From positions 62,001 to 126,000 of the forward strand of contig JAFIEP010000129.1 in NCBI GenBank assembly GCA_020832495.1: DNA of 64,000 nt, written 5' to 3'. Position 1 is the first letter of the stretch; each line of letters starts with the position of its first letter. Below, one piece after another: positions 2,167-44,528 of this stretch. Below the pieces are notes generated by a model. That model was given only the letters and a program-made list of their open reading frames with translations, did not search any database and was not told where the DNA came from. This DNA is from Acidimicrobiia bacterium (GTDB lineage Bacteria; Actinomycetota; Acidimicrobiia; Acidimicrobiales; Acidimicrobilacustridaceae). A program made the translations under genes and the position numbers.

Positions 2167-3312
2167 ATGGCCAAGCGCAGCAACTCGACAGGGAGCATCT
2201 ACTACAACGCCTCCCGTGACCGGTGGGACGCCAAGGTCACCCTCGGCCGCAATCCTGACGGCACACTCAAGCGGCGTACCTTCACCGCCAAGACCCAACG
2301 TGAAGTCGCCAAGCGGCTGCGTGAAGCACTCGACGCCCACGACAACGGCCTCGACATCGGTGGGCGGGATCTCACCGTGGAGACCTTCGGCCGCTGGTGG
2401 GCCACCGAACTCCTACCCGGTGAAGGTCTCGCCCCCAGGACCGAGACGTGGTACCGCCAGACGCTCGAGGCGTACGTGCTCCCGCACGTCGGGAACCGCC
2501 GGTTGACCGGCCCCGGTCAGATCACCCCCGGCGATGTCGAAGCGATGACCGCCAAGTTGGCGAAGCAGGGTTACAGCCACAGGGTGCAGGTGGTGGCCCG
2601 CACCGTGCTCGGCAAGGTGCTCCGAGCCGCTGAAGTGCGAGGGTTCACCACCCGCAACGCTGCCCGCCTGGCCAAGTCACCACGGGACCGTGGAGACGCC
2701 CGAGACGTGAAGGCGCTCACCAAGAAGGAACTCGGCAAGCTCCTGACCGCCCTCGAGGGCACCCGCTGGTACGCACCGACGGCGGTGGCGGCCACCACCG
2801 GTCTACGACCTGGGGAAGTGCTGGCCCTCCACTGGCCCGACGTCGACCTGGGCGACGATCCGCACGTGTCGGTGCGTCATGCGTTGCAGTGGATCTCCCC
2901 AGGGCCGGAGCCGCACTTGAAGGCCCCCAAGCGGAACCGCTCCTACCGGACCGTCCCGCTGCCTGACTCGACGGTCGGCGTGCTCAAGGCGTGGCGGACC
3001 GAGCAGAAGGACCAGCGGGTCAACGCCGGCGAACTGTGGCGCCCTGTGTGGGATGACCTGGTGTTCACCGCTCCGAACGGGGCGCCGCTCAAGTTGATGA
3101 GCTGGCGTCAGGCCATGTCCCGAGCGATGAAGGGAACGCACCCGCACCGGTTGCGGCACACGTACGCAACGCACTTGATCTCCTCTGGCGTGCCGATAGC
3201 CCACGTGGCCGAACTGCTCGGTGATTCGGTGGCGGTGGTGGACTCCACCTACAGCCACGTGGTGAGGATCAAGTCCGAGACCCGACAGGTGGCTGACGGT
3301 CTGCTCGGCTAG
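2167..3312 (+). CDS. int: Tyrosine integrase
   Basis: A 381-residue phage-type site-specific recombinase that would integrate the element at the tRNA-Asn att site. An N-terminal arm-binding domain (GSIYYNASRDRWDAKV, residues about 9-60) precedes a SAM-like core-binding domain (about 65-175) and the catalytic domain. The latter shows Arg in TTGLRPGEVLALHW (about 212), the HRLRH box (327-331) and the nucleophile Tyr362 in STYSHV. The usual GH before the Tyr is GDS here. The ATG has a TAGGAG ribosome site. It is the first gene inside attL, the usual integrase position, and its own arm-site array overlaps its leader, which suggests autoregulation. Confidence 0.95.
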   Translation: MAKRSNSTGSIYYNASRDRWDAKVTLGRNPDGTLKRRTFTAKTQREVAKRLREALDAHDNGLDIGGRDLTVETFGRWWATELLPGEGLAPRTETWYRQTLEAYVLPHVGNRRLTGPGQITPGDVEAMTAKLAKQGYSHRVQVVARTVLGKVLRAAEVRGFTTRNAARLAKSPRDRGDARDVKALTKKELGKLLTALEGTRWYAPTAVAATTGLRPGEVLALHWPDVDLGDDPHVSVRHALQWISPGPEPHLKAPKRNRSYRTVPLPDSTVGVLKAWRTEQKDQRVNAGELWRPVWDDLVFTAPNGAPLKLMSWRQAMSRAMKGTHPHRLRHTYATHLISSGVPIAHVAELLGDSVAVVDSTYSHVVRIKSETRQVADGLLG

Positions 3313-3319
3313 GTCACCA

Positions 3320-3682
3320 CTACCGGGATGGCGCTCCCGGCAAGGCTCGGCCATCAGCCGGAACTCGGCAGTTGGCCGCTGCCAGTTTCTCGGTGGTGAG
3401 CGTCAGTGTGCCGCTGGTGGCCGCAGTCAGTAGCCGGTTCAGTGTGGCGTCTCGCCCTCGGATGGTTTGGCCACAGGCCGTGCAGGTGACCTCAAAGCTT
3501 CTCCCACCGTGGGGTGAGAGCCAGCTACTTTCCCGTGCGAACCACGTCCCGTCCCACAAGTCGCGACCGCCGAAGCCGCAAGGCCACAGGATGCCGAGCC
3601 GCTTACCGCACTCGCAACGCACCGTCCGGTCGTCATCGGCATGGAACCAGGGGCGATCTCTAACCCGCTTGCGTCGTGACAC
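3320..3682 (-). CDS. Small zinc-finger protein of unknown function
   Basis: About 120 residues, transcribed against the integrase. A CECGK pair near residue 24 and CTACG near residue 68 form two knuckles of a probable zinc ribbon; the tail is Ala/Pro-rich. I do not recognise a family. The GTG at 3682 is preferred over the ATG further upstream because a perfect TATAAT lies seven bases before it, which implies a leaderless message. The gene diverges from the excisionase operon, the position in which many satellites place a regulator, so a DNA- or RNA-binding control role is possible but unproven. Confidence 0.6.
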   Translation of the reverse strand: MSRRKRVRDRPWFHADDDRTVRCECGKRLGILWPCGFGGRDLWDGTWFARESSWLSPHGGRSFEVTCTACGQTIRGRDATLNRLLTAATSGTLTLTTEKLAAANCRVPADGRALPGAPSR

Positions 3683-3689
3683 GCGTGTA

Positions 3690-3695
3690 ATTATA
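3690..3695 (-). promoter_or_regulatory. Perfect TATAAT -10 box, leftward
   Basis: The minus strand reads TATAAT here, seven bases before the GTG at 3682. On the plus strand a TTGACA lies at 3704-3709, facing the excisionase, but no good -10 box follows at normal spacing. The interval 3683-3807 is the divergent control region of the element. Confidence 0.5.
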
Positions 3696-3807
3696 GTCGG
3701 TGGTTGACATCCATACACCGGTCCGCTTCGGCGTAGACCCGTAAGTCAGGGCAGCAACGACAGGGTGCCCGCCGCCTAACCCCCATCGGGTTCGGGCTGG
3801 AGCACCC

Positions 3808-3996
3808 ATGTCCACCGTTGACCGGTTGGCGTACAGCCCAGCAGAGGCCGCACAGGCCCTCGGCTGCACCCGCCAGCACATCTACAACATGCTCACTCGA
3901 GGTGAGCTGCACAGCATCAAGCTCGGCAAGCGTCGGTTCATCCCACGTGCCGGCCTCGAGGCCCTGCTCGCTGAGGACCAGGGGGTTGCATCGTGA
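3808..3996 (+). CDS. Excisionase-type HTH protein
   Basis: A 62-residue winged-helix protein of the MerR/AlpA/Xis type. The pattern YSPAEAAQALGCTRQHIYNMLTRGEL followed by IKLGKRRFIPRAGLEALL is the classic excisionase fold: a helix-turn-helix and a two-strand wing. In such elements it directs integrase towards excision and often regulates transcription. The ATG at 3808 gives a full-length domain. Its TGA overlaps the GTG of the next gene (3993), so excision and replication functions appear co-translated. Confidence 0.85.
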   Translation: MSTVDRLAYSPAEAAQALGCTRQHIYNMLTRGELHSIKLGKRRFIPRAGLEALLAEDQGVAS

Positions 3997-4976
3997 CGAC
4001 CCCGAACATGCCGCCGCCCCCGGTCGGAGCCGAGGGCGGGGCGGACGATCACCAGGGCAGCGGTGTCACCGACAACGATACCACCGGGGGTACCTCGGTG
4101 GGAGCCCTCCACGGCGCCGCCCGCCAGTACGCGAAAAACCAACGGCCCGTGTTCCCGTTGCAACCTGGCATGAAGGTGCCGCTGCCGGGCAGCGGGGGGT
4201 TCAAGGACGCCACGACCGATCTCACACAGATCGACGCCTGGTGGTGGACGAACCCGTCGTACAACATCGGCGTGGCCACCGGCCCGGCGGGGTTGGTCGT
4301 GGTGGACCTCGACGTGAAGTGGCTCCCCGACGGCAGGCCCAACCCCGACCACAACGGTTACACGGCGTGGTATCGGCTGCTCACCGACCTCGGTTTCGAT
4401 GATGAGCCGCACACCTTCACCGTGGACTCACCGACCGGTGGGCGGCACCTGTACTTCCTGGCCCTCCCTGGGCGCCCGGTGGCGACATCGACCGGTGGCA
4501 CGCCCAAGAGCTTCCCTGTCGGTATCGACGTGCGGGCCGAGGGCGGCTACATCGTGGCGGCGCCGTCGGTGCGTCCCGATGGCGGCTACATCGTGGACCG
4601 CCACACCGAGGCCATCCCGTTCCCCGACGCCCTGGCCGACTACCTCGAGGCCAAGGCGAACCAACCGGTCCGACGGCGCCGTCCGACGGCGGTGCAACCG
4701 CTCCGACGACCCCGGCGAGGGTACGGTGCCGCAGCCCTGGCCGATGAGGTGCAGCGGGTCGCAACCGCCCCGGTCGGCACCCGCAACGACGCGCTCAACC
4801 GGGCAGCGTTCAACCTGGGCCAACTGGTCGCAGGTGGCGTGCTCGAGGCCACCGACACCGCCAACGCCCTGTTGGACGCCGCCACCGCATGCGGGCTCGG
4901 TGAGGACGAGGCAAGCCGCACCGTCCTGAGTGCGTTCACGGCGTCGGCCGACCAGCCACGGCAGGTGCCAGCATGA
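3993..4976 (+). CDS. Bifunctional DNA primase/polymerase (prim-pol)
   Basis: A 327-residue archaeo-eukaryotic-type primase-polymerase. After a Pro/Gly-rich N-terminal stretch come the three catalytic motifs: VVVDLDVKW (Asp-x-Asp, about residue 105), SPTGGRHLYF (Ser/Gly-Gly-x-His, about 147) and GIDVRAEGGYIVAAPS (about 170). Members start and extend DNA chains during replication of plasmids, phages and satellites. A helical C-terminal region (from about 245) resembles the PriCT-like domains found after such cores. The GTG start overlaps the stop of the excisionase gene, and the stop overlaps the ATG of the ATPase gene, a compact replication module. Confidence 0.9.
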   Translation: MTTPNMPPPPVGAEGGADDHQGSGVTDNDTTGGTSVGALHGAARQYAKNQRPVFPLQPGMKVPLPGSGGFKDATTDLTQIDAWWWTNPSYNIGVATGPAGLVVVDLDVKWLPDGRPNPDHNGYTAWYRLLTDLGFDDEPHTFTVDSPTGGRHLYFLALPGRPVATSTGGTPKSFPVGIDVRAEGGYIVAAPSVRPDGGYIVDRHTEAIPFPDALADYLEAKANQPVRRRRPTAVQPLRRPRRGYGAAALADEVQRVATAPVGTRNDALNRAAFNLGQLVAGGVLEATDTANALLDAATACGLGEDEASRTVLSAFTASADQPRQVPA

Positions 4977-6688
4977 GCGCCCGAGACGATTTGCTCAAGG
5001 GTGTGGAGGAGCTTCACGCCGACACTGAACCCGCCGAGGGCGACGAGGACAAGAAGCCGAACCAGGCCACCATCCTGGTGGAGTTGGCCGAGTCGTACTA
5101 CCGCCTCGGTGCCGACCTCACCGGCGAACCACACGCCGTGGAACATGACGGCCCCAACCTGGCCCGCCAGTTGCGTGGCCGTGGTGGTCTGCGTGCGGAG
5201 TTGGCCGACGCCTTCTTCAACCGGCACGGCAAGGCGCCATCGGCTACCGCTCTCGCCGACGCCCTCACCGTCCTCGAGGGTCGAGCGGTGCGGGCCGAAC
5301 GTGAACCCGTCGCCCTGCGGGTCGCTGAGTATGGCGATGCTGTCGTGATCGACCTGGGCGACCCCGACGGTCGCTGCATCATCGTGGAACCAGGGTCGTG
5401 GCGGATCGCTGACCGGTCCCCGGTCCTGTTCCGTCGGTCTGCGTTGACTGGTCGGCTACCAGATCCCGCAGCAACCGGGGATCTTGACCGTCTGCGGCGT
5501 CACGTCAACGTGAGCGATGACCTGTGGCCCGTCCTGGTCGGGTGGCTGGTGGCCGCTCTCATCAGCGGTATCCCTCACCCGATTCTCGCCCTCCTCGGTG
5601 AGCAGGGGACCGCCAAGACCACGACAGCGGTCCGCCTGGTCGGGCTGATCGACAACAGTCCCGCCCCGGTGCGGACCGCCCCACGGGATCCCGAACAGTG
5701 GGTTGTGTCCGCTGCCGGGTCGTACGTCGTCGGGGTCGACAACATCTCGTCGGTGCAGGCGTGGTTGTCGGACGCCTGGTGTCGAGTCGTGACCGGTGAC
5801 GGACTGGTCCGACGGACCCTCTACAGCGACGGGGACTTGACCGTGACGGCGTTGCGTAGGTGCCTCATCATCACGGCAATCGACGCCGGAGCCCTGCGAG
5901 GAGACCTCGCTGAGCGCCTCGTCCCCCTCGAGTTGGAACGCATCCCGAAGGGTTCCCGCCAGCTCGACGCCGAGCTAACCGCCCGGTGGCAGGACGATCA
6001 CCCGATCATCCTCGCTGGTCTGTTGGATCTCGTTGCCAAGGTGCTGGCCGTCCTGCCGTCCACGGTGGTCGACGACCTGCCCAGGATGGCGGACTTCGCT
6101 CTCGTCCTGGCCGCAATCGACCGGATCAACGAATCGTCCTCCCTCGACACCTACCGCCGGCTAACTGAGCGGACCGCCGCCGAAGTGGTCGATTCCGACC
6201 CTGTGGCCGCAGCTGTTGCCGACCTGGTGGCGGACCAACCGTGGAGCGGCACGGCAGGGGCTCTCCTCGACGCCCTCAACGCACGCCGCACCGATGAGCG
6301 GGCCCCGAGGGGATGGCCCGGATCGCCTCGAGCAATGGGCGGTGCCCTCCGGCGGTGCGCCCCTGGTCTGCGTGCCGCTGGCATCGACGTGGACGACGAA
6401 CGGGACTCCACCAAGCAACGGCGGCGCCTGTTCACCATCGGACAGAGGGGGGATGGAAACGACCGTCCGAACAGTCCGAACAGTCCGAATCCCGCCCCTG
6501 ACCTGGGGAAACACCTTCGGACGGTCGGTCGGACGGTCGCGACACCAACCGTCCAACAGTCCGACGAACAGTCCGACACGAAAACGCCCGCTGACCTGGG
6601 CTTTTCCACCCCGTCGGACGGTTCGGACGGTTCGGACGAACGAAACCGACCCCCCTCTGACGCCACCGACCTCGAGGAGCACCCGTGA
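4973..6688 (+). CDS. P-loop ATPase, probable replicative helicase/loader
   Basis: 571 residues. A Walker A motif GEQGTAKTTT (about 208-217) is followed by strand-Asp patterns YVVGVDNISS (about 250) and a sensor-like LIITAIDAG (about 297). This arrangement is seen in ATPases next to prim-pol in actinobacterial phages and integrative elements. It would unwind or remodel DNA for element replication. The last 100 residues are low-complexity, with repeated NSPNSPN, SDGSDGS and QSDEQSD, probably a disordered linker. It starts by an ATGA overlap with the prim-pol gene. The helicase activity is inferred from position and P-loop; no clear SF3 arginine finger is recognised. Confidence 0.75.
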   Translation: MSARDDLLKGVEELHADTEPAEGDEDKKPNQATILVELAESYYRLGADLTGEPHAVEHDGPNLARQLRGRGGLRAELADAFFNRHGKAPSATALADALTVLEGRAVRAEREPVALRVAEYGDAVVIDLGDPDGRCIIVEPGSWRIADRSPVLFRRSALTGRLPDPAATGDLDRLRRHVNVSDDLWPVLVGWLVAALISGIPHPILALLGEQGTAKTTTAVRLVGLIDNSPAPVRTAPRDPEQWVVSAAGSYVVGVDNISSVQAWLSDAWCRVVTGDGLVRRTLYSDGDLTVTALRRCLIITAIDAGALRGDLAERLVPLELERIPKGSRQLDAELTARWQDDHPIILAGLLDLVAKVLAVLPSTVVDDLPRMADFALVLAAIDRINESSSLDTYRRLTERTAAEVVDSDPVAAAVADLVADQPWSGTAGALLDALNARRTDERAPRGWPGSPRAMGGALRRCAPGLRAAGIDVDDERDSTKQRRRLFTIGQRGDGNDRPNSPNSPNPAPDLGKHLRTVGRTVATPTVQQSDEQSDTKTPADLGFSTPSDGSDGSDERNRPPSDATDLEEHP

Positions 6689-7149
6689 GCAACAGCCGCA
6701 GATTCCGCAGGAAGGTGGCCGAGCAGGCCCAGGCCGACCAGGTGGCCACCGCCGCCCGCATCCTGTCCACGAACCTCGAGCAGATGGCCGCCGAGACGGG
6801 ATGCAACCGGGAGGAGAACTCCCACCGCCTCGCCGCATCCCGACTCCATGGCCGTCTACTCGGTGGCCCGGCGGCAGAGGGGCGACTCAAGGCGTGCCCA
6901 CACATGGCGGCGCCGCAACCCGGCGCCGTCCTCGCCCCGTTCCCCGGTGTTGTGTGGTGCGCCAGTTGCGCCGCCGAGATCCTGGCCCGTGACGAGTTCC
7001 ACGAACTGTGGACCACATCGGGCTGTGACCTCTGCGCCGACCAGGTGGGCCGCTACCACCCAGTCGTCATCCAGGACGGCCCCGTGGCCATCCACGCCAC
7101 CGTGTGCCCGTCCTGCTTCCACGACACCCCCAACCCGAACCACAACTAG
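6685..7149 (+). CDS. Cys-rich hypothetical protein of the element
   Basis: 154 residues, starting at a GTG that overlaps the ATPase stop. The first 60 residues are helical and basic. The second half has paired cysteines (WCASC, CDLC, VCPSC) spaced like a double zinc ribbon. I do not recognise the family. It sits between the replication module and the capsid module; a role in DNA binding or in diverting a helper phage is possible, but nothing in the sequence decides it. Confidence 0.7.
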   Translation: MSNSRRFRRKVAEQAQADQVATAARILSTNLEQMAAETGCNREENSHRLAASRLHGRLLGGPAAEGRLKACPHMAAPQPGAVLAPFPGVVWCASCAAEILARDEFHELWTTSGCDLCADQVGRYHPVVIQDGPVAIHATVCPSCFHDTPNPNHN

Positions 7150-7157
7150 GAGACCCC

Positions 7158-7697
7158 ATGTCAGACGAACAGACCGAACCGACCGAACAGCCCACAGAGG
7201 CCGACGAGACCCAGGAGACCGAACACGACGAGACCCAGGAGATCCCCGGCGCGGGCGACAGCACAGAGGGAGAAGGCGAGGATCAGGAAGGCGAGGAGGG
7301 GGACCACGACCCGGCTGCAGCCGTCCGAGCCGAAGCCAAGCGGTACCGCCTCAAGTTGCGCGAGGTGGAGGGCGAGCGGGACGCCCTGCGGTCCCAGCTC
7401 GAGGCAGTCCACCGCCAAGAGGTGGTGCGCCACGCAGAAGGTGCCGGGATGCTGGCCGACGGCACAGACCTCCTCCTCGATGGCCGCTACTCCATCGGGG
7501 ATCTCCTCGACGCCGACGGAGCGGTCGACGGCGCCAAGGTGACCAAGGCCGTGGCCGACATCGTGGAACGGCGTCCGCACTGGCAGGCCCCCAGGGAACC
7601 GACGAACCCGACCGGTCGACCCGTCACCCGACTGCACGGCGGGACCGTGGACGACCCCGGCGCCCGGTCCTGGGGCGACGTGATCCGTAGACGCTGA
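7158..7697 (+). CDS. Capsid scaffold-like protein
   Basis: 179 residues. The first 50 are extremely acidic and disordered (repeated TE, ETQE, GEGEDQEGEE). A predicted coiled coil follows (about 55-90, AEAKRYRLKLREVEGERDALRSQ-like heptads), then a short C-terminal globular part with WGDVIRR. This is the usual build of phage scaffolding proteins, which shape the procapsid and are encoded directly before the major capsid gene, as here. The ATG has a good AGGAG site. The function is inferred from composition and order. Confidence 0.72.
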   Translation: MSDEQTEPTEQPTEADETQETEHDETQEIPGAGDSTEGEGEDQEGEEGDHDPAAAVRAEAKRYRLKLREVEGERDALRSQLEAVHRQEVVRHAEGAGMLADGTDLLLDGRYSIGDLLDADGAVDGAKVTKAVADIVERRPHWQAPREPTNPTGRPVTRLHGGTVDDPGARSWGDVIRRR

Positions 7698-7840
7698 AGT
7701 ACCCCGTGGGGTATGATGCTGGTGTCCTGTGAAACCGCCCGGTGCGACCACGGGACACCAGCTCCCCCCGGAGGGGACACAACAGGCAGGCCCGGAGCCG
7801 CCTAACCATCCCGTACCCCTCCGAACGAGGAGCTTTCCCC
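7698..7840 (+). promoter_or_regulatory. Structured leader before the capsid gene
   Basis: This 143-base gap holds a near-perfect dyad TACCCC-GT-GGGGTA at 7700-7713 and a longer stem (GGTGTCC at 7721 pairing with GGACACC near 7753-7759). A CG-rich stretch and a GAGGAG ribosome site before the ATG at 7841 follow. It may hold a promoter operator or an attenuator that lets capsid expression exceed that of the scaffold. No classical -10/-35 pair stands out. Confidence 0.4.
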
Positions 7841-8674
7841 ATGACTTTCGTCTCGAACGACGGCGCCAGCCTGCTGCGCCCCGAAGATGTCGGCACCCTG
7901 CTGGTGCAACCGGTGCAGCGTGCATCGGTGGCCATGTCGGTGTCCGAAGTGATCTTCACCGACTCGGCCGAGTTCCGAGTCCCTGTCGTCACCGACGACG
8001 CCACCGCCGGGTGGACCCCCGAGGGCGAGGAGATCACGCCCAGCAAGCCCGAGACCGACGAGGAGCTTGTGAAGCCGGCGAAGGTCGCTGGTCTGACCAT
8101 CGTGTCCCGCGAGTTGGCCGAGGACTCGAGCCCTGCCGCTGCCTCGGTGATCGGTGAATCCCTGGCCCGTGACATCGCCCGCAAGATCGACGCCGCCTTC
8201 TTCGGCAACGAGAGCCCACCCGCCCCGAGCGGCCTCGAGTCGCTGGCCGACGTGGACGACGTTGACGGAGACCTCGACTCCCTCGACGTGTTCGCCGAGG
8301 CCATCGCCGCCGCCGAGAACGTCGGTGCAACCCTCGGTGCGTTCGTCGCCAACCCCGCAGACGCCCTCGCCCTCGCCGTGCTCAAGGACCAGGACGAGAG
8401 CGTCAGGCCGTTGCTGTCGGCCGATCCGACCGAACCGACCCGCCGGGCCCCGTACGGCGTCCCCCTCTGGGTGTCGCCTGCCGTGACCGCCGGGACCATC
8501 TGGGGCATCCCGTCGGGACGCACCATGGTCGTGGTCCGCACCGACACCCGCATCGACGTGTCGGAGGACGCCTACTTCAGCTCCGACCGCCTCGCCGTCC
8601 GAGCCACCATGCGGGTCGGGTTCGCCTTCCCCCACGAAGAGGCCATCGTCGCCATCAACGTCGGCGGCAGTTGA
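7841..8674 (+). CDS. HK97-fold phage major capsid protein
   Basis: 277 residues. The N-terminal arm (SLLRPEDVGTLLVQPVQRASVAM), the PVVTDDATAGWTPEGEEI segment, the long helix region SRELAEDSSPAAASVIGESLARDIARKIDAAFF and the C-terminal GVPLWVSPAV...DVSEDAYFSSDRLAVRATMRVGF strands are the standard landmarks of the HK97-type shell protein. It lacks the extra N-terminal delta domain because a separate scaffold is encoded upstream. It would self-assemble into the icosahedral head. It is notable that no portal or terminase genes surround it, so packaging would depend on another phage. Confidence 0.9.
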   Translation: MTFVSNDGASLLRPEDVGTLLVQPVQRASVAMSVSEVIFTDSAEFRVPVVTDDATAGWTPEGEEITPSKPETDEELVKPAKVAGLTIVSRELAEDSSPAAASVIGESLARDIARKIDAAFFGNESPPAPSGLESLADVDDVDGDLDSLDVFAEAIAAAENVGATLGAFVANPADALALAVLKDQDESVRPLLSADPTEPTRRAPYGVPLWVSPAVTAGTIWGIPSGRTMVVVRTDTRIDVSEDAYFSSDRLAVRATMRVGFAFPHEEAIVAINVGGS

Positions 8675-8734
8675 TTTCCCGAGCCACGGGAAAACGGTGG
8701 CCCCCCTCTCCGTGGCAAGAGGGGGGTCACCACC
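8675..8734 (+). terminator. Two successive hairpins after the capsid gene
   Basis: TTTCCCG-agcca-CGGGAAA at 8675-8693 starts directly after the stop. A second stem at 8696-8734 (GGTGG and CCCCCCTCT with AGAGGGGGG and CCACC) follows. Together they make a strong transcription terminator or an RNA-protecting structure at the end of the structural module. Up to 8837 the DNA is a C-rich tract with repeated CCACCCCC and no gene. Confidence 0.7.
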
Positions 8735-8837
8735 TCACCCCCACCCCCGGCAGGTGGACCCCACCCCCATGTGGCAGGCCCCACCCCACCCCCAGGTGGG
8801 AGCCACGGCAAGCCGACGGCAACGAGGACACAACAAC

Positions 8838-9209
8838 GTGACCAACACGACCACGAACACGATGCAGTCGGTGGCCATGGCCACCCTGACCGCCCTCGCC
8901 GCCAGCATCATCCTCGGCGCACTGCTGCGCAGGTGGAACCGAACAGAGCACACCGCAACCGCTCAACACACCAGCAACACAGCCGGCAAACGACCGAGCG
9001 AAACGCCAGCAACGGCAACGGATCGCGCCAACGGCAACCGACCGAGCACCAGCCACCGCACCCCCAGGGGGGATGACCCCCGCCCCGCCCCGCTGACAAC
9101 CTGGTCGGTCATAGCGTCAAATCTCTCCCCACCAGTTTCGGGGGGCGAACCTGCGCCCACCTGGCAGCCCTCCACGGCGTCGGTTTCGGGGGGTGTGACC
9201 GGTGAGTGA
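8838..9209 (+). CDS. Small membrane protein with disordered tail
   Basis: About 123 residues from the GTG at 8838. A single transmembrane helix (SVAMATLTALAASIILGALL, about 10-29) is followed by RRWNR and a long polar Thr/Asn/Pro/Ser-rich tail. It overlaps the WhiB-like gene by eight bases, so it is probably translated with it. A holin-like, surface or anchoring role is conceivable; the sequence has no other recognisable motif. Confidence 0.5.
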   Translation: MTNTTTNTMQSVAMATLTALAASIILGALLRRWNRTEHTATAQHTSNTAGKRPSETPATATDRANGNRPSTSHRTPRGDDPRPAPLTTWSVIASNLSPPVSGGEPAPTWQPSTASVSGGVTGE

Positions 9210-9588
9210 ACGGCGTGGTGCGTCGGCGGAGCGGGAGGCCCGAGCGGCTGCCGGGCTCGCCGCCCAGCTCGATGAGCGAGGGCAGGCGGAGGCCGCTGCA
9301 CTCCACCGTGCTCGAGCAGCCCAGGCGGAGCGGGACGCGTTCACGACGTTGATGGTCGGTGCCGACCTGCCGGATCTCATCCCGCCTCGCCCTCGGTGGC
9401 ACGCCGACGCTGCATGTCGTGGCAGGGGCGACTGGTTCGACCTGGCCGCACCCGACGCCAAAGCAATCTGTGGTGAGTGCCCGGTGAAGCAGGCGTGCGC
9501 TGACGACGGGATCGAGGAACCGGCTGGTGTGTGGGGCGGCATGTCCGAGCGGGACCGTCGGAAGTTGCGACGAGGCCGGGTCGCCTGA
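9202..9588 (+). CDS. WhiB-family iron-sulfur regulator
   Basis: 128 residues. The four cluster cysteines are Cys72, Cys90, Cys93 and Cys99 (pattern C...C-x2-C-x5-C), followed by the G[VI]WGG turn (109-113) and the basic SERDRRKLRR tail. Wbl proteins are actinobacterial [4Fe-4S] proteins that bind the principal sigma factor region 4 and steer promoter choice; phage copies can cause superinfection exclusion. The N-terminal 60 residues are an extra Ala/Arg/Glu-rich helix. The gene is last in the rightward operon of the element and is closed by a hairpin at 9602. Confidence 0.92.
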   Translation: MSERRGASAEREARAAAGLAAQLDERGQAEAAALHRARAAQAERDAFTTLMVGADLPDLIPPRPRWHADAACRGRGDWFDLAAPDAKAICGECPVKQACADDGIEEPAGVWGGMSERDRRKLRRGRVA

Positions 9589-9601
9589 CCGCAGACGCGA
9601 A

Positions 9602-9629
9602 ACGACCCCCAGCCTGAGCCGGGGGTCGT
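9602..9629. terminator. Bidirectional hairpin between convergent genes
   Basis: ACGACCCCC at 9602-9610 pairs with GGGGGTCGT at 9621-9629 around a ten-base loop. It lies between the WhiB-like gene and the leftward gene ending at 9652 and could stop transcription from both sides. Confidence 0.7.
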
Positions 9630-9651
9630 GACGCTGGTGCTGTCGGTGTGG

Positions 9652-9933
9652 TCAGCGGGTGACGGTGAACCCCCGAGACTCGACCTCGGCCACCAGGTGC
9701 TCATCGGCCACGTCCGACAGGTCCGGTCCGCCATCGGGAGTGAGTCCCGCCTTGAGCTGGTCGATCAAGTCCGACGCATCGGACCGCGTGATGTCGTAGC
9801 GGACATCGGGAGCGTTCCCGCGCTTGTCGGTCAACCCCGCCGCCATCGCCGCGTCCGATGCCGAGTCGAATCCGGCCCGCCGCGACAGCGTGGCGATGAG
9901 CTCTACCTGCTTGCTGGTCGGCTGAGTGCTCAT
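9652..9933 (-). CDS. Hypothetical element protein, 93 residues
   Basis: The start is MSTQPTSKQVELIATL at the ATG 9933, which overlaps the stop of the preceding gene (TCAT on the plus strand at 9930-9933). The short protein has a helical N-terminus (TSKQVELIATLSRRAGF), a middle part rich in Asp and a second helix (DASDLIDQLKAGL). It resembles the small TSKQ/TDKQ-type helical proteins seen in actinophages, but I cannot assign a function. It is co-transcribed with the 175-residue gene upstream. Confidence 0.6.
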   Translation of the reverse strand: MSTQPTSKQVELIATLSRRAGFDSASDAAMAAGLTDKRGNAPDVRYDITRSDASDLIDQLKAGLTPDGGPDLSDVADEHLVAEVESRGFTVTR

Positions 9934-10457
9934 GCTGTCCCCAGGATCTCGTTGCAGATGCGCCGCAGCTCCTCGAGGCACACCACCACGTCCTCGTGGT
10001 CACTGGTCCGCTCGTGGAACCGCACCGACCGACCGCCCTCGAAGAACCGGCCCGTCACCTGGCACCGCCAGGCGCCCTCGCGCCGCTCCACGATGGCCTG
10101 CCACGGCTGCGCCTCGTACAGCCGATAGTCCTCCTGCTCGCGCTTGCGCTTCGCGACGGCATCCTCGGGGAGATGGGCCAACACGGCGTTGAGCACGGTG
10201 GGATCGACCACCATGGCCAGCTCGATCTCGGCACGGCGCACCAGCACGTCGAGGTTGGTGCGCATCGAAGGGTCGAGCATGTCGGGGTTCTCGAAGGCGT
10301 AGAGCATGGTTCGTGCCCGCTCCACGGCCGCTTCGTAGTCGCCGTGGGCCGGGAGGATCGAGTCGAGCAGGTACTCGACGAAATCGTCCTTGTCGAAGCA
10401 CACCAGCCACTCGGCAAGCAGCTCCCGGGCGGTGTCGGTCGGTTCGGTGGTTTCCAT
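9930..10457 (-). CDS. Hypothetical element protein, 175 residues
   Basis: An intact acidic, mostly helical protein starting at the ATG 10457 with GGAGAG upstream. The C-terminal half contains WQAIVERREGAWRCQVTG and GRFFEGG, a small beta-rich segment. No family recognised. It is the first gene inside attR and is transcribed away from it. In many satellites this edge carries accessory genes that interfere with helper or competing phages, so it is a candidate for such a role by position only. Confidence 0.6.
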   Translation of the reverse strand: METTEPTDTARELLAEWLVCFDKDDFVEYLLDSILPAHGDYEAAVERARTMLYAFENPDMLDPSMRTNLDVLVRRAEIELAMVVDPTVLNAVLAHLPEDAVAKRKREQEDYRLYEAQPWQAIVERREGAWRCQVTGRFFEGGRSVRFHERTSDHEDVVVCLEELRRICNEILGTA

Positions 10458-10487
10458 GGTTGGTCTCTCCTGTGGTTGGGAGACACC

Positions 10488-10512
10488 CGTTGGTTACCTG
10501 GTTGGTTACCTC
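10488..10512 (+). repeat. Right arm-type integrase sites (tandem)
   Basis: Identical over 25 bases to 2122-2146: two GTTGGTTACCT units, 57 bases inside the attR core. Both copies lie inside the element and in the same orientation, as expected of integrase arm sites carried by the excised circle. Confidence 0.7.
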
Positions 10513-10569
10513 ACCGACGTTTCGCTGTCGGTGAGGCTACCCGCACCCTGCCTGACCTGGTGTTTTGTA

Positions 10570-10617
10570 GCTCCGGGGGTGGGGCTCGAACCCACGACAT
10601 TCTGATTAACAGTCAGA
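10570..10617. repeat. attR core within tRNA-Asn
   Basis: The 48-bp match with attL ends after the 5' strand of the anticodon stem. Bases 10618-10643 (D arm and acceptor 5' strand) are host DNA. The element therefore supplied a new 3' part and kept the tRNA intact. Confidence 0.93.
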
Positions 10618-10643
10618 CGCTCTGCCGGCTGAGCTACCCCGGA
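10571..10643 (-). tRNA. tRNA-Asn (GTT)
   Basis: 73 bases fold into a full cloverleaf on the minus strand: acceptor TCCGGGG/CCCCGGA, D arm GCTC...GAGC, anticodon stem TCTGA/TCAGA with loop CTGTTAA (anticodon GTT), T stem GTGGG/CCCAC with TTCGAGC, and discriminator G. CCA is not encoded. It is the integration target of the element to its left. Confidence 0.96.
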
Positions 10644-10757
10644 AGGTGTCGTTGCAGGATAGCAGTGGCACTCGGTCGCCCCGAACTCCGATCTGCGGCC
10701 GGCGCCCCCGTCCGGTGCCTCGCCTGACACGACGTGGACGAAGGGCGGCTCGTGCGC

Positions 10758-10763
10758 TACAAA
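10758..10763 (+). promoter_or_regulatory. -10 box of the 10770 gene
   Basis: TACAAA lies six bases before the ATG at 10770, so the message is probably leaderless. The -35 region is weak (GTGGAC at 10734-10739). Confidence 0.4.
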
Positions 10764-10769
10764 GCACCT

Positions 10770-11090
10770 ATGCGTGCCAAGACCGGTCTGTTCGTGGGCC
10801 TCGCCGTCGGCTACTACTTCGGGGCCAAGGCTGGTCGGGAGCGCTACGAGCAGCTCGATGCCACGTTGCGCCGCATCCGCCGCCACCCCCGAGTGGCGGG
10901 GACCGTCGCCGAGGTCGACGTGCGTGTCCGTCCGCACCTCGAGCGGACCCTGCTCGTGGTGGACGACGCCGTCCCCGGACTGTGCGACACCTTGGGCATC
11001 GCGGTGCCGAAGGAGGCGACCCCTGACTGGGGCGTCCCCACCTGGGTGAGCGACGAATCGTCGGAGGACGAGCCAGAACCCTGGCGGTGA
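10770..11090 (+). CDS. YtxH-like small envelope protein
   Basis: 106 residues from the ATG at 10770. The opening MRAKTGLFVGLAVGYYFGAKAG is a short glycine-rich membrane helix followed by basic residues (RERYEQL), the build of actinobacterial YtxH-like proteins encoded beside housekeeping genes. The rest is soluble and ends in an acidic tail (SSEDEPEP). The function of the family is not known; membrane association is inferred from the helix. It converges on rpoD. Confidence 0.6.
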   Translation: MRAKTGLFVGLAVGYYFGAKAGRERYEQLDATLRRIRRHPRVAGTVAEVDVRVRPHLERTLLVVDDAVPGLCDTLGIAVPKEATPDWGVPTWVSDESSEDEPEPWR

Positions 11091-11115
11091 ACAGGGCTCG
11101 ACCGTCCGGAGCGGG

Positions 11116-12414
11116 TTACTCGACGTCGAGGTAGTCGCGCAGCTTCTGGCTGCGGTGCGGGTGACGCAGCTTGGCCAGGGTCTTCGACTCGATCTGGCGG
11201 ATGCGTTCGCGAGTGACCCCGAAGCGTTTGCCGACCTCCTCGAGGGTGTGGGCCTGGCCGTCGTCGAGCCCGAACCGCATGCGCACCACCGCCCTCTCCC
11301 GCTCGTTCAGGCCCTCGAGTGCTTCCTCGAGGGTGTCGGTGAGCATCTTGCGGGCGGCCATGTCGGCGGGAGCATCGGCCTGCTTGTCCTCGATGAAGTC
11401 CGCCAGGTTGGTGTCCTCCTCGTCGCCGACCGGGGAGTCGAGCGACAGGGGTTCCTGGCTGATCCTCAGGATCTCTCGGACCCGCTCGGGGGTCATGTCG
11501 ACCCGCTCGGCCAGTTCCTCGACAGTGGGCTCGCGCTCGAGCCCCTGCTGCATCTCCCGCTGCACCCGCTGCACCCGGTTCATCGACTCGACCATGTGTA
11601 CCGGGATGCGGATCGTGCGGGCCTGGTCGGCAATGGCCCGGGTGATGGCCTGGCGGATCCACCAGGTGGCGTAGGTGGAGAACTTGAACCCCTTGGTGTG
11701 ATCGAACTTCTCGACCGCACGCATCAGCCCCAGGTTGCCTTCCTGCACCAGGTCGAGCAGATGCAGACCGCGCCCGTTGTAGCGCTTGGCGATCGACACC
11801 ACGAGGCGGAGATTGGCCTGGGTCAACTCGGCCTTCGCCTCCTTGCCGTCGCGCACGTCGGCGACCAAACGACGACGTTCATCGGGGTCGAGCCGGTGAA
11901 GTTCGTCGGTGGCCTGCAGATCCATGATGCGCGCAGCAGCCGTGGCACCCACCTCGATGCGCTTGGCCAGCTCGACCTCCTCGGCGGCGTCGAGGAGCGA
12001 CACCTGACCGATCTCCTTCAGGTACAACCGCACCGGGTCGGCACTTCCGCCGGATGTCGAGCCAGCGCTGAGACCCCGGCCGTTGCGACCGGCCCGCGAC
12101 CTGCTCCGCACCCTCGGGGCTCGTTCCCCCTCGAGGTCGGCCAGGAACCGGTCGTCCACGAGGTCCAGGACCACGGCGTTCACCTTCCCGGGCTCGCGCT
12201 CGTCAACCGTCACTTCGGCGTCGCTCGTCCGCGCCGCGTCGGCCCGTCGAGGAGCGCTGCCTTCTGGCTCGTCGGTTGTCCCGTCCTCCACCGTCACCTC
12301 CGCAGTGGGTGCCGCAGCGGGCTCGATCAGCGGTATGTCGCTGGCACCACTCGGTCGCTCGGCATCCCCCGGACCGTCACCCTCCCGGGACAGCACCCCC
12401 ATGCCCTCGGTCAT
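11116..12414 (-). CDS. rpoD: Principal RNA polymerase sigma factor (RpoD/SigA)
   Basis: 432 residues from the ATG at 12414, which overlaps the dnaG stop by four bases. It recruits core polymerase to housekeeping promoters. An acidic disordered N-terminus is followed by region 1.2/2 ([13 protein letters not shown], then the [16 protein letters not shown]-type core, [13 protein letters not shown] for -10 recognition and melting), region 3 and region 4 ([21 protein letters not shown], the -35 helix-turn-helix). The longer frame upstream to 12504 lies inside dnaG and is rejected. dnaG-rpoD is the ancient macromolecular-synthesis arrangement. This is the factor that a WhiB-like protein from the left element would be expected to contact. 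Confidence 0.95.
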
Positions 12415-14267
12415 GCTGTCTCCTCGAACCGGTCTGCCAGCCAGACTAGCAAGCTGCTCAGGGCTGCCGATCCCGCGTCCGGATCGCGCAGTTCTTCGGA
12501 CCAACGCTTGAGGTCGACCAGGTCGGCGGCGTACACGAGTGGATCATCGGCATGAGAGGCCCCGTACCGAAGCGCGTCGATCGCTCGCTGCGCCGCCGCC
12601 TCGACCAACCGAGCCACGACGTCGTCGGTTTCGGCGCCACTCTGCTCGGTGGCGACCTGCCGGAGCAGGTCGGCGACTGGGTCGTCCACACCCGCTGGTG
12701 GACCCGCCTCGAGACTCGCCGGTGGGTCGTCGCCCTGCCCGGGCGGCGGAGCGAGGTCGTCGAGCGCAGCGCGCACCGACCCGTCGTGGCGTTGCAGCAC
12801 CTCGTACACGGCGCGGGCACGCTCGTCGCTGAACAGACAGGGATGCAGCGCTGGGGCCAACGATGCGAAGTCGGCGACCAACAGCCGCAGCGCCTCACGT
12901 TCGGGTCCGGGCACCGACGCCCGCTCGAGCCGCCGCCCGCCCACAGCGCCTCGAGCGTCAGTGGCGGCGGGGCCACCACGCCCGCCGCCCGAGCGACGGC
13001 CCCGGCTCATCGACCGCAGCCGGTCGGGGTCGAGCCGTGTGCGGGAGGCCACCGTCATCAGGTACTCGTCACGCACCAGCTCGCTCGGATGCTCGGAAAT
13101 GACCACCATCGCCGCCTCGGCAGTCTGCGCTCGGCCTTCGGGGGTGTCCAACCGCCCGGCGTCGAGGACTCGTTGCACCCGGAACCCCAAGAAGGGCAGC
13201 GCGTCGTTCACGGCACGCCGCAACGCCTCGGGGTCCGAGCGTGCCAGATCACCCGGGTCGCTGCCGGCGGGGAGCCGAGCCACTGCCACGTCGAGCTCGA
13301 ACTGACGCTCCCAGGCGTAGATCCGTTCGGCGGCGTGCTGCCCGGCGGCATCTGCGTCGAAGGCCAATACCACCCGCCGGGCGAAACTCCGCAACGTGCG
13401 GACATGGTCCTCGGTCAGTGCCGTGCCACAGGTGGCCACCGCCCGGTTCATGCCGACGGCAGCGAAGCCGATCACGTCGGTGTAGCCCTCGCACACGATG
13501 GCTTCGTCGGCAGCCACGATGTCGCCCTTTGCCCAGTGCAGGCCGTAGAGCACCCGGCTCTTGTGGTACAGCACCCCGTCAGGTGAATTGATGTACTTGC
13601 GGGGATCCTCACCGGGCATGGCGCGGCCACCGAAGCCCACCGGTTTCCCTCCGGCGTCGAAGATGGGGAACATGATGCGGCCCCGGAAGGCGTCGGTCTG
13701 ACCGCCCCAGTTGTTGAGCCGTCCCAACCCGGCCTCGACGAACACGTCGTCGGGCAACCGCAACGCCTTGGCCAGCGCATCCCACGACTGCGGCGCCCAC
13801 CCGAGCTTGTAGGTGCGCACCTCGTCGCCGGTCACGCCCCGGGACCGCAGGTAGGCACGGGCCGGTCCGGCGTCGGCACCGTTCAGCAACCGCCGGTGGT
13901 AGAAGTCCACCGCACGTTCCACGGCGTCGTGCAGCTTGGAGCGACGCCGTCGCCCCTCGCTCTCGGCCACGTCGGTGTAGCGCAGGGTCATCCCGGCGGT
14001 GGCTGCCAGTTTCTCGACCGCACCGACGAAGTCGAGATGCTCGATCTCCCGGATGAAGGTGATCACGTCGCCCTTGGCCCCACAGCCGAAGCAGTAGTAC
14101 AGACCGTCCTCGCGGTTCACCGAGAACGAGGGCGACTTCTCGGCGTGGAACGGGCACAGTCCCTGCCAGCGCCGCCCCACCCGCCGCAGCTGGACGTGCT
14201 CGCCGATGACCGAGACGATGTCAGCGCGCTCTCTCAGCGTGGCGATGTCCTCGTCGACGATGCCCAT
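12411..14267 (-). CDS. dnaG: DNA primase DnaG
   Basis: 618 residues, the normal length. It makes RNA primers at the replication fork. The CHC2 zinc finger is Cys38, His41, Cys59 and Cys62 (CPFH...CFGC). The Toprim core follows, with [12 protein letters not shown] and its catalytic Glu, and LAFDADAAG for the Asp-x-Asp metal site. The C-terminal DnaB-binding region (about 430-618) is rich in Arg, Ala and Asp and poorly conserved. The ATG at 14267 gives the standard [18 protein letters not shown] start. Translationally coupled to rpoD. Confidence 0.96.
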
Positions 14268-14310
14268 CCGTGGGGACCTCCCACCGAACGCTACCAGCGC
14301 TGCTGTGGCG

Positions 14311-15962
<1,652 letters not shown>

Positions 15963-15966
<4 letters not shown>

Positions 15967-16835
15967 CCGCCCGCTTCCTCGTCGGCGCGGTCCGCTGGTG
16001 TGGCCGGGAGTCGAGCCCGCAGGCTGTAGAGCAGGGGGATGCGCGGCGACCCGGCGGGCAGCCGGTAGGTGCCGTCGACCTGGCGCTCGAGGAACGGCCA
16101 CCGCTGCCAGAGGGTGACATCCCGTTCGGCCAGCAACTCCACCTGCAACCCGGCAGCCACCACGGCGGTGACGACGTCGCCGATGGGGTGTGTCCACTCC
16201 CAGGTCACGTTGTGCAGCGTGCCGTCGCCGCCATCGGTGTAGGTACCGTCCACCTCGTAGCGGGTGCCGTCGGGGCGGGTGAAGTAGTCCTCGGTGACCA
16301 CCAGCGCGTCCTCGGCCAGCATGTCGGTGAAGGGGTGGAACTCACACAGGTAGAGCATGCCACCCGGTCGGAGGAGAGACGCGACCACCTCGGCCCAGCG
16401 CCACACGTCGGGGAGCCACACCAGTGCGCCGATCCCGGTGTACACAACGTCCGCGCTGGCCGGCTCCACCACCTCTGCTGCCCGGTAGACGTCGGCCTCC
16501 ACGAATCGGGCGTCAAGCCCCAGGCGGGCGGCCAATGCCTGCGCCTCGGCGATGGCCGCCGCCGAGAAGTCGAGCCCGGTGACGTGCGCGCCTCGCCGAG
16601 CCCACGACAGCGTGTCCTGGCCGAAGTGACACTGCAGGTGCACCAGGTCCAGGCCGGCCACATCGCCGACGTCATCGACCTCGAACGGTCGCAGGGAACA
16701 ACGCCCCGCCACGAAGCCCTCGACGTCGTAGTACTCGGACGCCAGGTGGATGGGAACCCGTTCCTCCCAGGCCGTCCGGTTCACCACCAACCGTTCGTCC
16801 ACGGTCCGGCACCCTACCGGGCCGGCAACGCCCAC
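15963..16835 (-). CDS. Class I SAM-dependent methyltransferase
   Basis: 290 residues (possibly 279 if the GTG near 16802 is used). Motif I reads LDLVHLQCHFGQDTLSWARRGAHVTGLDFS (about 65-95), with acidic residue Asp in GLDFS for SAM and the post-motif DARFVEADVY. The conserved FHPFTDML and WEWTHPIGDVV segments place it in the Methyltransf_11/25 group found widely in actinobacteria. The substrate is not known. It is coupled to the PPDK-like gene by a four-base overlap. Confidence 0.82.
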
Positions 16836-16914
16836 GACGGCTGTCGCCGCGTCGAGGAGCCCGTCGGCGATCGACGCCCCGGACAGGCGCCCCGGGCAGG
16901 CGCTCAGGTAGGGC

Positions 16915-18303
16915 TCAGGGCAGGCGCTCGCCGAGCACTGCCATCAAGTCGTCGATGGGCACCCGTACCTGGGCCATGGTGTCACGGTCGCGCACCGTCA
17001 CCGCCCGGTCCTCGAGCGTCTCGAAGTCGATGGTCACGCACACCGGGGTACCCAGTTCGTCCTGGCGTCGGTAGCGCTTGCCGATGGCCTGGGTCTCGTC
17101 GTAGTCGGTCATCCACCGGTCGGCCACCATGGTGTGGACCTCCGAGGCCACGCCGGCCAACTCGGGCTTGCGCGACAGCGGCAGCACCGCCGCCTTGTAG
17201 GGCGCCAGGCGAGGATGCAGGCGCAGCACCACCCGAGTCTCGCCGCGCACCTGTTCCTCGTCATAGGCGGCCAGCAGGAAGGCCATCATGGCCCGGGTGG
17301 CGCCGGCGGCCGGCTCGATGACGTGGGGTGTGTAGCGGGTGCCCGACGCCTGGTCGAAGTAGTCGAGTTTCTCGCCCGAGTGGGTGGCGTGCTGGGTGAG
17401 GTCGTAGTCGCCCCGGTTGGCCACCCCCTCGAGCTCGCCCCAACCCCAGGGGAAGGCGAACTCGACGTCGGACGTCCCCGAGGAGTAGTGCGACAGCTCA
17501 TCGGCGTCGTGGGGCCGCATGCGGAGGCGGTCCTCGGGAATGCCGAACTCGACGTACCAGTTGTAGCGCTCGGCGCACCAGTACTCGTACCAGTGCTCGA
17601 CCTCGTCGGGCGGCACGAAGTACTCCATCTCCATCTGCTCGAACTCCCGCGTGCGGAACACGAAGTTGCCTGGGGTGATCTCGTTGCGGAACGACTTGCC
17701 GATCTGAGCGATGCCGAACGGCGGGCGCTTGCGGCTGGCGTTGAGCACGTTGGCGAAGTTGGTGAAGATGCCCTGCGCCGTCTCGGGACGCAGATAGGCC
17801 ACCGCCGCGTCCTCCTCCACCGGCCCGGCGTGGGTCTTGAACATGAGGTTGAACTGCCGGGCTGCGGTGAAGCTGTCCTTCGCCCCGCAGGTGGGGCAGG
17901 TCGTGGGATCCTCGAGCTGGTCCTCGCGGAAACGGCTCTTGCACTTGCGGCAGTCCACCAGTGGGTCGGTGAAGTTCACCAGGTGGCCCGAGGCCTCCCA
18001 CACCGCCGGCGGCGACAGGATGGCGGCGTCGAGCCCCACCACGTCGGTGCGGAGCTGCACCATCGACCGCCACCAGGCGTCCTTGACGTTGCGCAGCAGC
18101 AGCACGCCGATGGGGCCGTAGTCGTAGGTGGAACGGAACCCGCCGTAGATCTCCGCCGAGGGGAACACGAAGCCCCGACGCTTGGACAGGTTCACCACCC
18201 GCTCCATGAGCGTCTCGTCGTTGGGCACGTCGACGGGCACCACCTCCTCGACACGGTCGGTGGTGCTGGCGGTGTCGGTGGGGTTCGGCTCGGCGTCGGA
18301 CAT
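16915..18303 (-). CDS. glyQS: Glycyl-tRNA synthetase (class II, dimeric)
   Basis: 462 residues from the ATG at 18303; a longer frame is open upstream but without support. It charges tRNA-Gly with glycine. Landmarks are KRRGFVFPSAEIYGGFRSTYDYGPIGV at the N-terminus, a zinc-like pair DCRKCKSRF...CPTCGAKD, motif 2 with FRNEITPGNFVFRTREFEQMEMEYF, motif 3 near GATRAMMAFL, and the anticodon-binding C-terminal domain APYKAAVLPLSRK...VCVTIDFETLED. Length and motifs match the single-chain alpha2 type used in actinobacteria. Confidence 0.95.
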   Translation of the reverse strand: MSDAEPNPTDTASTTDRVEEVVPVDVPNDETLMERVVNLSKRRGFVFPSAEIYGGFRSTYDYGPIGVLLLRNVKDAWWRSMVQLRTDVVGLDAAILSPPAVWEASGHLVNFTDPLVDCRKCKSRFREDQLEDPTTCPTCGAKDSFTAARQFNLMFKTHAGPVEEDAAVAYLRPETAQGIFTNFANVLNASRKRPPFGIAQIGKSFRNEITPGNFVFRTREFEQMEMEYFVPPDEVEHWYEYWCAERYNWYVEFGIPEDRLRMRPHDADELSHYSSGTSDVEFAFPWGWGELEGVANRGDYDLTQHATHSGEKLDYFDQASGTRYTPHVIEPAAGATRAMMAFLLAAYDEEQVRGETRVVLRLHPRLAPYKAAVLPLSRKPELAGVASEVHTMVADRWMTDYDETQAIGKRYRRQDELGTPVCVTIDFETLEDRAVTVRDRDTMAQVRVPIDDLMAVLGERLP

Positions 18304-44436: not shown

Positions 44437-44482
44437 CCAACGCCGAACGCATGCGCCATGACTTCAGCGACGGTCTCGACGC

Positions 44483-44528
44483 TAGGGTCGGTCCAGTGAG
44501 CTCTCCCAACCTGCGGGCTACAGCGTGA
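44483..44528 (+). promoter_or_regulatory. Leaderless promoter and ten-codon leader ORF
   Basis: A TAGGGT -10 box at 44483-44488 precedes a GTG at 44496 by seven bases. That GTG opens a ten-codon frame (MSSPNLRATA) whose TGA (44526-44528) overlaps the GTG of the large NTPase (44525) as GTGA. The arrangement suggests translational coupling or sensing through a leader peptide. Inferred from sequence only. Confidence 0.4.

Follow-up and report, generated by a model that had tools for sequence, protein, structure and literature searches.

The candidate PICIs described from Mycobacterium (PMC10654092, text available in part) combine an integrase with a capsid gene, occupy tRNA sites with tyrosine integrases in the examples shown, and in some cases include replication proteins and a scaffold. 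The cfPICIs carry a larger set of parts, i.e., capsid, protease, portal, connectors, terminases and HNH (PMC10690885, text available in part). WhiB-like (Wbl) proteins have been reported as the most abundant transcription regulators of actinobacterial phages, with largely unknown roles there (PMC10023795 and PMC8612146, each available in part). Our literature search, made without most subscription papers or supplements, found no paper on WhiB-like proteins of phage satellites, so that annotation elsewhere is possible; in the available text of the satellite and PICI literature that was found, WhiB was mentioned for prophages or in reference lists only.

The window analyzed here, a 64,000-nt stretch of an Acidimicrobiia contig (JAFIEP010000129.1), contains an integrated element of about 8.6 kb, bounded by a 48-nt exact repeat in an intact tRNA-Asn, at its 3' end. 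The left attachment repeat (1973-2020) is identical to the right one (10570-10617), which lies inside the tRNA-Asn(gtt) that served as integration target (10570-10643, minus strand). A 25-nt perfect direct repeat is present at 2122-2146 and 10488-10512. Its core, TTGGTTACC, occurs only four times in the 64 kb, twice at each element end, and because of this confinement the repeats are taken as candidate integrase arm sites. The plus strand encodes a tyrosine integrase (2167-3312; PF00589, 68.3 bits; phrog_1), an excisionase-type HTH protein (3808-3996; TIGR01764, 41.6 bits; phrog_66), a Prim-Pol primase/polymerase (3993-4976; PF09250, 115.3 bits) and a helicase-like ATPase (4973-6688), which shows 31% identity to the helicase of Microbacterium phage Zeta1847 and matches no Pfam family over the cut-off. 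They are followed on the same strand by a Cys-rich protein (6685-7149), not a Wbl by Pfam, at the site where some related satellites have a Wbl; it gave a weak TniQ-like match (16.8 bits, cut-off 27; PADLOC TniQ, 21.3 bits). Next come a scaffold-like protein conserved alongside the capsid gene (7158-7697; weak match to phrog_4708, head scaffolding protein, E = 2.8e-4; no Pfam match), the HK97 major capsid protein (7841-8674; TIGR01554, 90.7 bits; PF05065, 103.3 bits on the longer ORF 7742-8674), a small ORF without a family match that could by eye encode a single-pass membrane protein (8838-9209), and the Wbl gene (9202-9588), all on the plus strand. Two minus-strand ORFs occupy the space between the Wbl gene and the right end, a small one (9652-9936; no family over the cut-off, with a weak DUF3072 match of 15.8 of 27.5 bits on a longer ORF) and one of 175 aa (9930-10457; no family found), and these are possible cargo. 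The earlier note had the Wbl protein ending the capsid operon, which is correct for the operon but not for the element, given the two opposite-strand ORFs.

Scans of the element's proteins with Pfam, PHROGs, TIGR and other libraries gave no terminase, portal, protease or tail family. The capsid and the scaffold-like protein are the only packaging or head parts recognized, which places the element outside the cfPICI definition; an integrase and a capsid gene between attachment repeats are what defines a candidate PICI in the available text of PMC10654092, and both are present. Judged by gene content, the element is satellite-like and not a cfPICI as defined; it supplies its own capsid protein and presumably obtains the remaining parts from a helper phage. 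A single-family test for a resident helper, a search of the whole assembly for the portal family PF04860, gave no match. In the viral_contigs collection, no relative of the element was found with the capsid or the helicase as single query, and the Wbl query returned one distant relative (L013). The capsid protein as single query in 148 relative genomes gave three weak matches besides itself. Elsewhere in the window, a defence island at 37848-48721 consists of type I restriction-modification M, S and R genes followed by an Avs2-like protein (PADLOC, 801 bits).

The Wbl gene begins with GTG and encodes 128 aa. It had been described as a complete four-Cys Wbl protein, and this description holds. 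PF02467 (Whib) matched residues 66-122 with 47.7 bits (E = 2.3e-12) against a curated Pfam cut-off of 23.6, PHROG WhiB families also matched, Cys72, Cys90, Cys93 and Cys99 do not vary in two alignments (20 and 57 Wbls from hosts, chromosomes and phages), and G109-V-W-G-G113 fits the family turn pattern G[I/V]W[G/A]G. By these profile and alignment results, 9202-9588 encodes a real Wbl-family protein. It scores lowest of the eight Wbls that PF02467 detected in its own genome (49.1 bits, the next 49.6). The spacing between Cys1 and Cys2 is 17 residues; among 74 distinct canonical-type Wbl motifs the commonest value is 22 and only one is shorter. The protein lacks the features of two known subclasses: it ends in RRGRVA without the AT-hook RGRP of WhiB7 and has W66, a counterpart of the N-terminal Trp that WhiB7 lacks, and no Arg-rich motif as in WhiB3 follows W78-F79 in the 17-residue Cys1-Cys2 stretch. 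Downstream of the gene a stable stem-loop (9602-9629, plus strand; z -4.1, with one of 200 shuffles as stable) has no T-run and was not listed by the terminator scan. The promoter scan gave one site, at 7688-7717, with 0.3 expected.

The helical N-terminal extension noted before was recovered as a prediction: 65 residues precede the Pfam domain, and AlphaFold2, run on a 57-row alignment, predicted a single helix from residue 3 to 53 (mean pLDDT 83, pTM 0.46; 84-97 in 10-residue blocks up to residue 50). A Foldseek search of the PDB with this model returned Wbls in all the top nine places (WhiB1, WhiB3, WhiB, WhiB7 and WhiB6), with a best E value of only 0.086; such weak values could perhaps be caused by the long helix. 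In the listed tblastn matches, 20 of 978 from phages and 12 of 70 from plasmids, the alignment begins at residue 45 at the earliest. Some genome and viral-contig matches begin earlier, at residues 4-38; several of their frames are long and rich in Ala and Arg, no common N-terminal motif is visible by eye, and these early parts are probably chance. An internal ATG at codon 51 would yield a Wbl of normal length. Translation of the whole frame from the GTG is favored over this start, since the codon-position composition is alike on either side of codon 51 (0.88/0.64/0.72 and 0.76/0.59/0.74) and a G-run, seen by eye, precedes the GTG.

The best phage matches of the capsid protein were 12 Mycolicibacterium aichiense records of about 11 kb (OR387110-OR387121), with 34-36% identity. 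A genome scan gave 13 capsid loci at 33-57% identity in Demequina, Cryobacterium, Nocardia, Pseudonocardia, Mycolicibacterium and others, and in genome family f89, 79 of 301 genomes matched a 15-row capsid alignment at E 1e-15 or better. In total 82 loci were read and 81 counted, L120 being dropped for want of a complete capsid ORF; as L312 equals L128 and L330 equals L075, 79 of them are distinct. A profile search found a diverged Wbl-like gene in 17 of the 81 loci, with the chromosomal WhiB of L132 set aside, a figure that applies to this selection, 60 loci of which were taken from the better-scoring capsid places in f89. When the capsids were clustered at 70% identity, 17 of the 57 clusters had a Wbl. 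Seventeen of 19 Wbl matches share the strand of the capsid ORF and stop 0.3-1.4 kb upstream of it, the other two being that of L132 and a second copy in L333; across the 81 loci there was no Wbl match on the opposite strand upstream or within 2.2 kb downstream of the capsid. Where the parts were recognized, the gene order is integrase, primase or AAA protein, Wbl, scaffold, capsid. L333 (about 3000-18100) seems to hold tandem satellites, with the order integrase, AAA, Wbl, capsid, integrase, AAA, Wbl. Twelve of the 17 copies exceed the Pfam cut-off (L067, L068, L127, L313, L322, L328, L333, L336, L347, L348, L352 and L355), four fall below it at 15.9-21.3 bits (L321, L337, L338 and L345) and one has no Pfam match (L344); the last five rest on the satellite profile, which was iterated on these same loci with L132 in the seed. 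A strict motif demanding a G.WG-type turn had earlier given no Wbl in an initial set of 18 capsid loci, 16 from genome stretches and two from phage records, and the chromosomal WhiB of L132 alone in L120-L136, an absence overturned by the profile, which found diverged copies in L067, L068 and L127.

When the 79 distinct loci are sorted by integrase, a Wbl is present in 14 of the 32 tyrosine-integrase loci, in 1 of the 23 serine-integrase loci, in 2 of the 7 where no integrase was found, and in 0 of 17 loci with a weak capsid score; the contrast between tyrosine and serine integrases gives a Fisher p of 0.0016 if the relatedness of the loci is ignored. No Wbl was found in 62 of the 79, and therefore the Wbl is not essential to this type of satellite. 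In 16 of these genomes, 123 Wbls exceed the PF02467 cut-off, and 11 of them lie by a capsid gene. With 112 other Wbls in about 76 Mb, a hand calculation puts the chance expectation at about 0.13 for Wbls on the capsid strand in the 2.2 kb upstream of the capsid across the 81 loci. The new point is a positionally fixed, recurrent Wbl in part of the capsid-carrying actinobacterial satellites. This recurrence argues against a chance passenger, and it suggests that a Wbl control switch may be shared among these satellites.

For the window gene itself, it is quite unlikely that it was acquired from a chromosome or a phage and has no role in the satellite. Such an origin could explain why the gene follows the capsid gene, unlike those of the 17 other loci, which sit between the replication genes and the scaffold or capsid genes, why its product has a canonical C terminus, and why its third-position GC is 0.73 when most larger genes of the element have 0.84-0.90. 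However, the frame is intact, the start of the ORF overlaps the stop of the preceding small ORF (8838-9209), the functional residues are conserved, and the count of Wbl-like genes in related loci far exceeds the expectation given above.

The related satellites with a Wbl have the composition of the window element. Pfam applied to 54 ORFs of six satellites, chosen from 121 listed for eight, gave six capsids, six integrases, four Whib, four HTH_17, primase- and AAA-type families and one small terminase, with no large terminase, portal or tail among the 22 families found. PHROGs agreed with Pfam on the six (25 of 64 families listed). Another 12 satellite ORFs were host-type genes, a regulator, a transposase or a scaffold-like protein, or had no match, without any terminase, portal or tail family.

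In WhiB3 a single Ala change of F31, F32 or W76, or of H516 in sigma-A, abolishes the complex; the equivalents in WhiB1 are F17, F18 and W60, and N-terminal Trp residues also matter (PMC10245118, text available in part). The cluster of WhiB1 is required for binding sigma-A (PMC5741622, text available in part). The window Wbl has W66, W78-F79 and W111, corresponding to residues reported to contact region 4 of sigma-A, and Glu106 stands two residues before the turn region (EPA-GVWGG). The SigA of the host can be aligned with mycobacterial SigA through KLRHP-RSQ-LRDYLD; in a residue numbering assigned by hand from this alignment, R515, H516 and P517 are kept and S512 is replaced by Ala. Because the contact residues for region 4 are present, a sigma-directed role of the window Wbl is plausible. 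The earlier note had proposed the Wbl as a possible switch of the satellite and pointed to the SigA encoded nearby. The contact residues and the recurrence of Wbls lend plausibility to the former, but the proximity of SigA adds nothing: its ORF starts at 11116, the element ends at 10617, and the product is the ordinary host sigma-A, encoded outside the element, so that nearness to the Wbl is no evidence of partnership. The note's further proposals, namely redox sensing, a block on other phages and the diverting of promoters of host or helper, stay conjectural. In the related elements L121, L122 and L123, inspection by eye points to an XRE-type repressor gene next to the integrase. No such repressor was recognized in the window element, so that a different regulator could have a place there.

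From these residues and the gene context, the window Wbl is most likely a sigma-A-directed regulator of satellite or helper genes. We are moderately confident in the more specific explanation, that the Wbl of an integrated, capsid-making satellite binds region 4 of sigma-A and changes promoter choice. The four Cys would hold a [4Fe-4S] cluster, W66, W78-F79 and W111 would bind region 4 of the host sigma-A, and the basic C-terminal helix, together with sigma-A binding, would alter the choice of promoters. On arrival of a helper, the Wbl might then raise or time the transcription of the satellite capsid genes, or that of packaging genes of the helper or host. The long predicted N-terminal helix may add a contact or oligomerise. 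A different function, as a metal-binding helper of capsid assembly or packaging that is made together with the capsid and is not a regulator, appears very improbable. It would fit the position in the capsid operon and the fact that, by eye, most satellite Wbls are without the canonical SERERRR tail and some without the turn Trp. The window Wbl nevertheless keeps the full set of sigma-contact residues and a basic C terminus, and AT-hook-like tails were found by pattern in three of 18 satellite Wbls, that of L313 being sub-threshold in Pfam (12.9 of 17.4 bits).

Whether the window Wbl belongs with the satellite Wbls was judged from several features. F or H at +7 and D or E at +8 after Cys1, a motif chosen after the satellite sequences had been seen, occurs in 17 of 18 satellite Wbls and in the window Wbl (F79-D80), and in none of 86 others (31 chromosomal, 55 phage); an aromatic residue at +7 that is not followed by the acid occurs more widely, in 22 of the 55 phage and 3 of the 31 chromosomal Wbls. 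The Cys1-Cys2 loop of satellite Wbls has 19-35 residues, mostly 29, and that of the window Wbl is shorter than all. Two more features speak against membership: the window Wbl fits the phage and chromosomal Wbl models better than the satellite model, and its gene comes after the capsid gene. In a quick tree, with many long branches and few columns, the 18 satellite Wbls stood apart at SH-aLRT 98 and the window Wbl fell among the canonical ones. A constrained tree in which it was held with the satellite Wbls had a likelihood 23.8 above that of the free search (p-AU 0.838), and 4.4 above it without the motif columns (p-AU 0.576), a result that does not show a clade. The window Wbl could derive either from common descent with a change of place or from a separate recruitment of a Wbl; whichever origin applies, Wbls are used in this lineage of capsid satellites. 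P4 Delta and P2 Ogr are small four-Cys activators of capsid-gene transcription, used by satellite and helper, that bind zinc and not an Fe-S cluster. A bolder reading, possible but in our view doubtful, is that the satellite-specific Wbls form a clade of late switches, counterparts of P4 Delta and Ogr, in which a sigma-A-bound Fe-S factor would activate the capsid operon when the helper arrives, with the window Wbl as a member moved behind the capsid.

Scoring 76.1 bits with the phage Wbl model, 58.3 with the chromosomal and 28.5 (core) with the satellite model, and with 978 phage records matching at E up to 1, the window Wbl could also be thought to act as TM4 WhiB does, on the host or on rival phages, as a dominant-negative protein that lowers a host whiB gene and excludes superinfection. 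In published work TM4 WhiB inhibited the whiB2 of its host, and the cells became resistant to TM4 (PMC8612146, text available in part). We consider such an action of the window Wbl unlikely. There was no close phage Wbl among the 20 of 978 listed, which reach about 36-41% identity over 75-83 residues, with TM4 outside this comparison, and a role in the satellite's own programme would account at least as well for the fixed place of satellite Wbls between replication and capsid genes. None of the 80 viral contigs with the nearest Wbls (best 80 of 415) had a capsid of this kind. One candidate with a Wbl and a Prim-Pol, L230, was rejected as a satellite, as by eye it resembles an ordinary phage, terminase and portal included.

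Satellite-type Wbls were also found away from these capsids. The satellite Wbl alignment gave 16 places at E 1e-10 or better in 30 genomes, 20 of them capsid-free and 10 capsid-positive, the latter picked for carrying a satellite Wbl, with six of their Wbls partly making up the query alignment. Ten places are by a capsid gene, five are in other integrase-bearing stretches (L380 and L385-L388), and the remaining one (G712:C35) looks canonical by its Pfam score of 74 bits. Three of the 20 capsid-free genomes have a satellite-type Wbl, all three in integrase stretches (L385-L387). L380, L385, L386 and L388 are integrase-bearing elements in which a satellite-type Wbl is present but none of these capsid genes was found; L380 also has an AAA protein. 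L387, an element with integrase, AAA protein and satellite-type Wbl, has a weak capsid-profile match at 10739-11953 (25.9 bits) and is perhaps a second capsid lineage on the same plan. Among 13 stretches around further, mostly weak Wbls of the same genomes, one is L380, one (L381) has a serine integrase at a distance of about 7 kb, and 11 had neither integrase nor capsid by the queries used; therefore odd Wbls are not confined to satellites. Small Wbl-like proteins encoded at about 8900-9500 of L372-L375, from two genomes, make up another odd group: their first half is unusual, their turn reads GLWAG, and neither an integrase nor a capsid gene was seen in the vicinity.

Compared with known systems, the proteins common in plan to the window Wbl are host WhiB1, WhiB3 and WhiB7 (6ono, 8cyf and 7kif), with which it shares the cluster Cys, the turn motif and the sigma-contact aromatics; it differs from them in the shorter Cys1-Cys2 loop, the absence of the RGRP AT-hook and the largely missing Arg-rich stretch of WhiB3 (R38, R42). 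TM4 WhiB and other phage Wbls (PMC8612146, text available in part) are likewise Wbls of mobile elements, but of full phages, and none of the 20 listed exceeds 41% identity to the window Wbl. P4 Delta and P2 Ogr belong to an unrelated family and offer an analogy only. The M. aichiense phages of about 11 kb, such as Alyssa1 and WillG, were compared through two of their records, which also have a scaffold-like gene before the capsid gene, but in these two records a serine integrase and annotated terminase, head-tail and tape-measure genes are present and no Wbl was found. The Mycobacterium candidate PICIs differ from the window element in that the available description names no WhiB gene, the word WhiB appearing in the reference list alone (PMC10654092). 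Satellites with a Wbl beside one capsid gene provide a simpler test bed, as they are built of about ten genes in a constant order and several diverged cases are available. A role of the Wbl in them would tell how satellites sense and answer their helpers, with a bearing on the mycobacterial PICI-like elements too.
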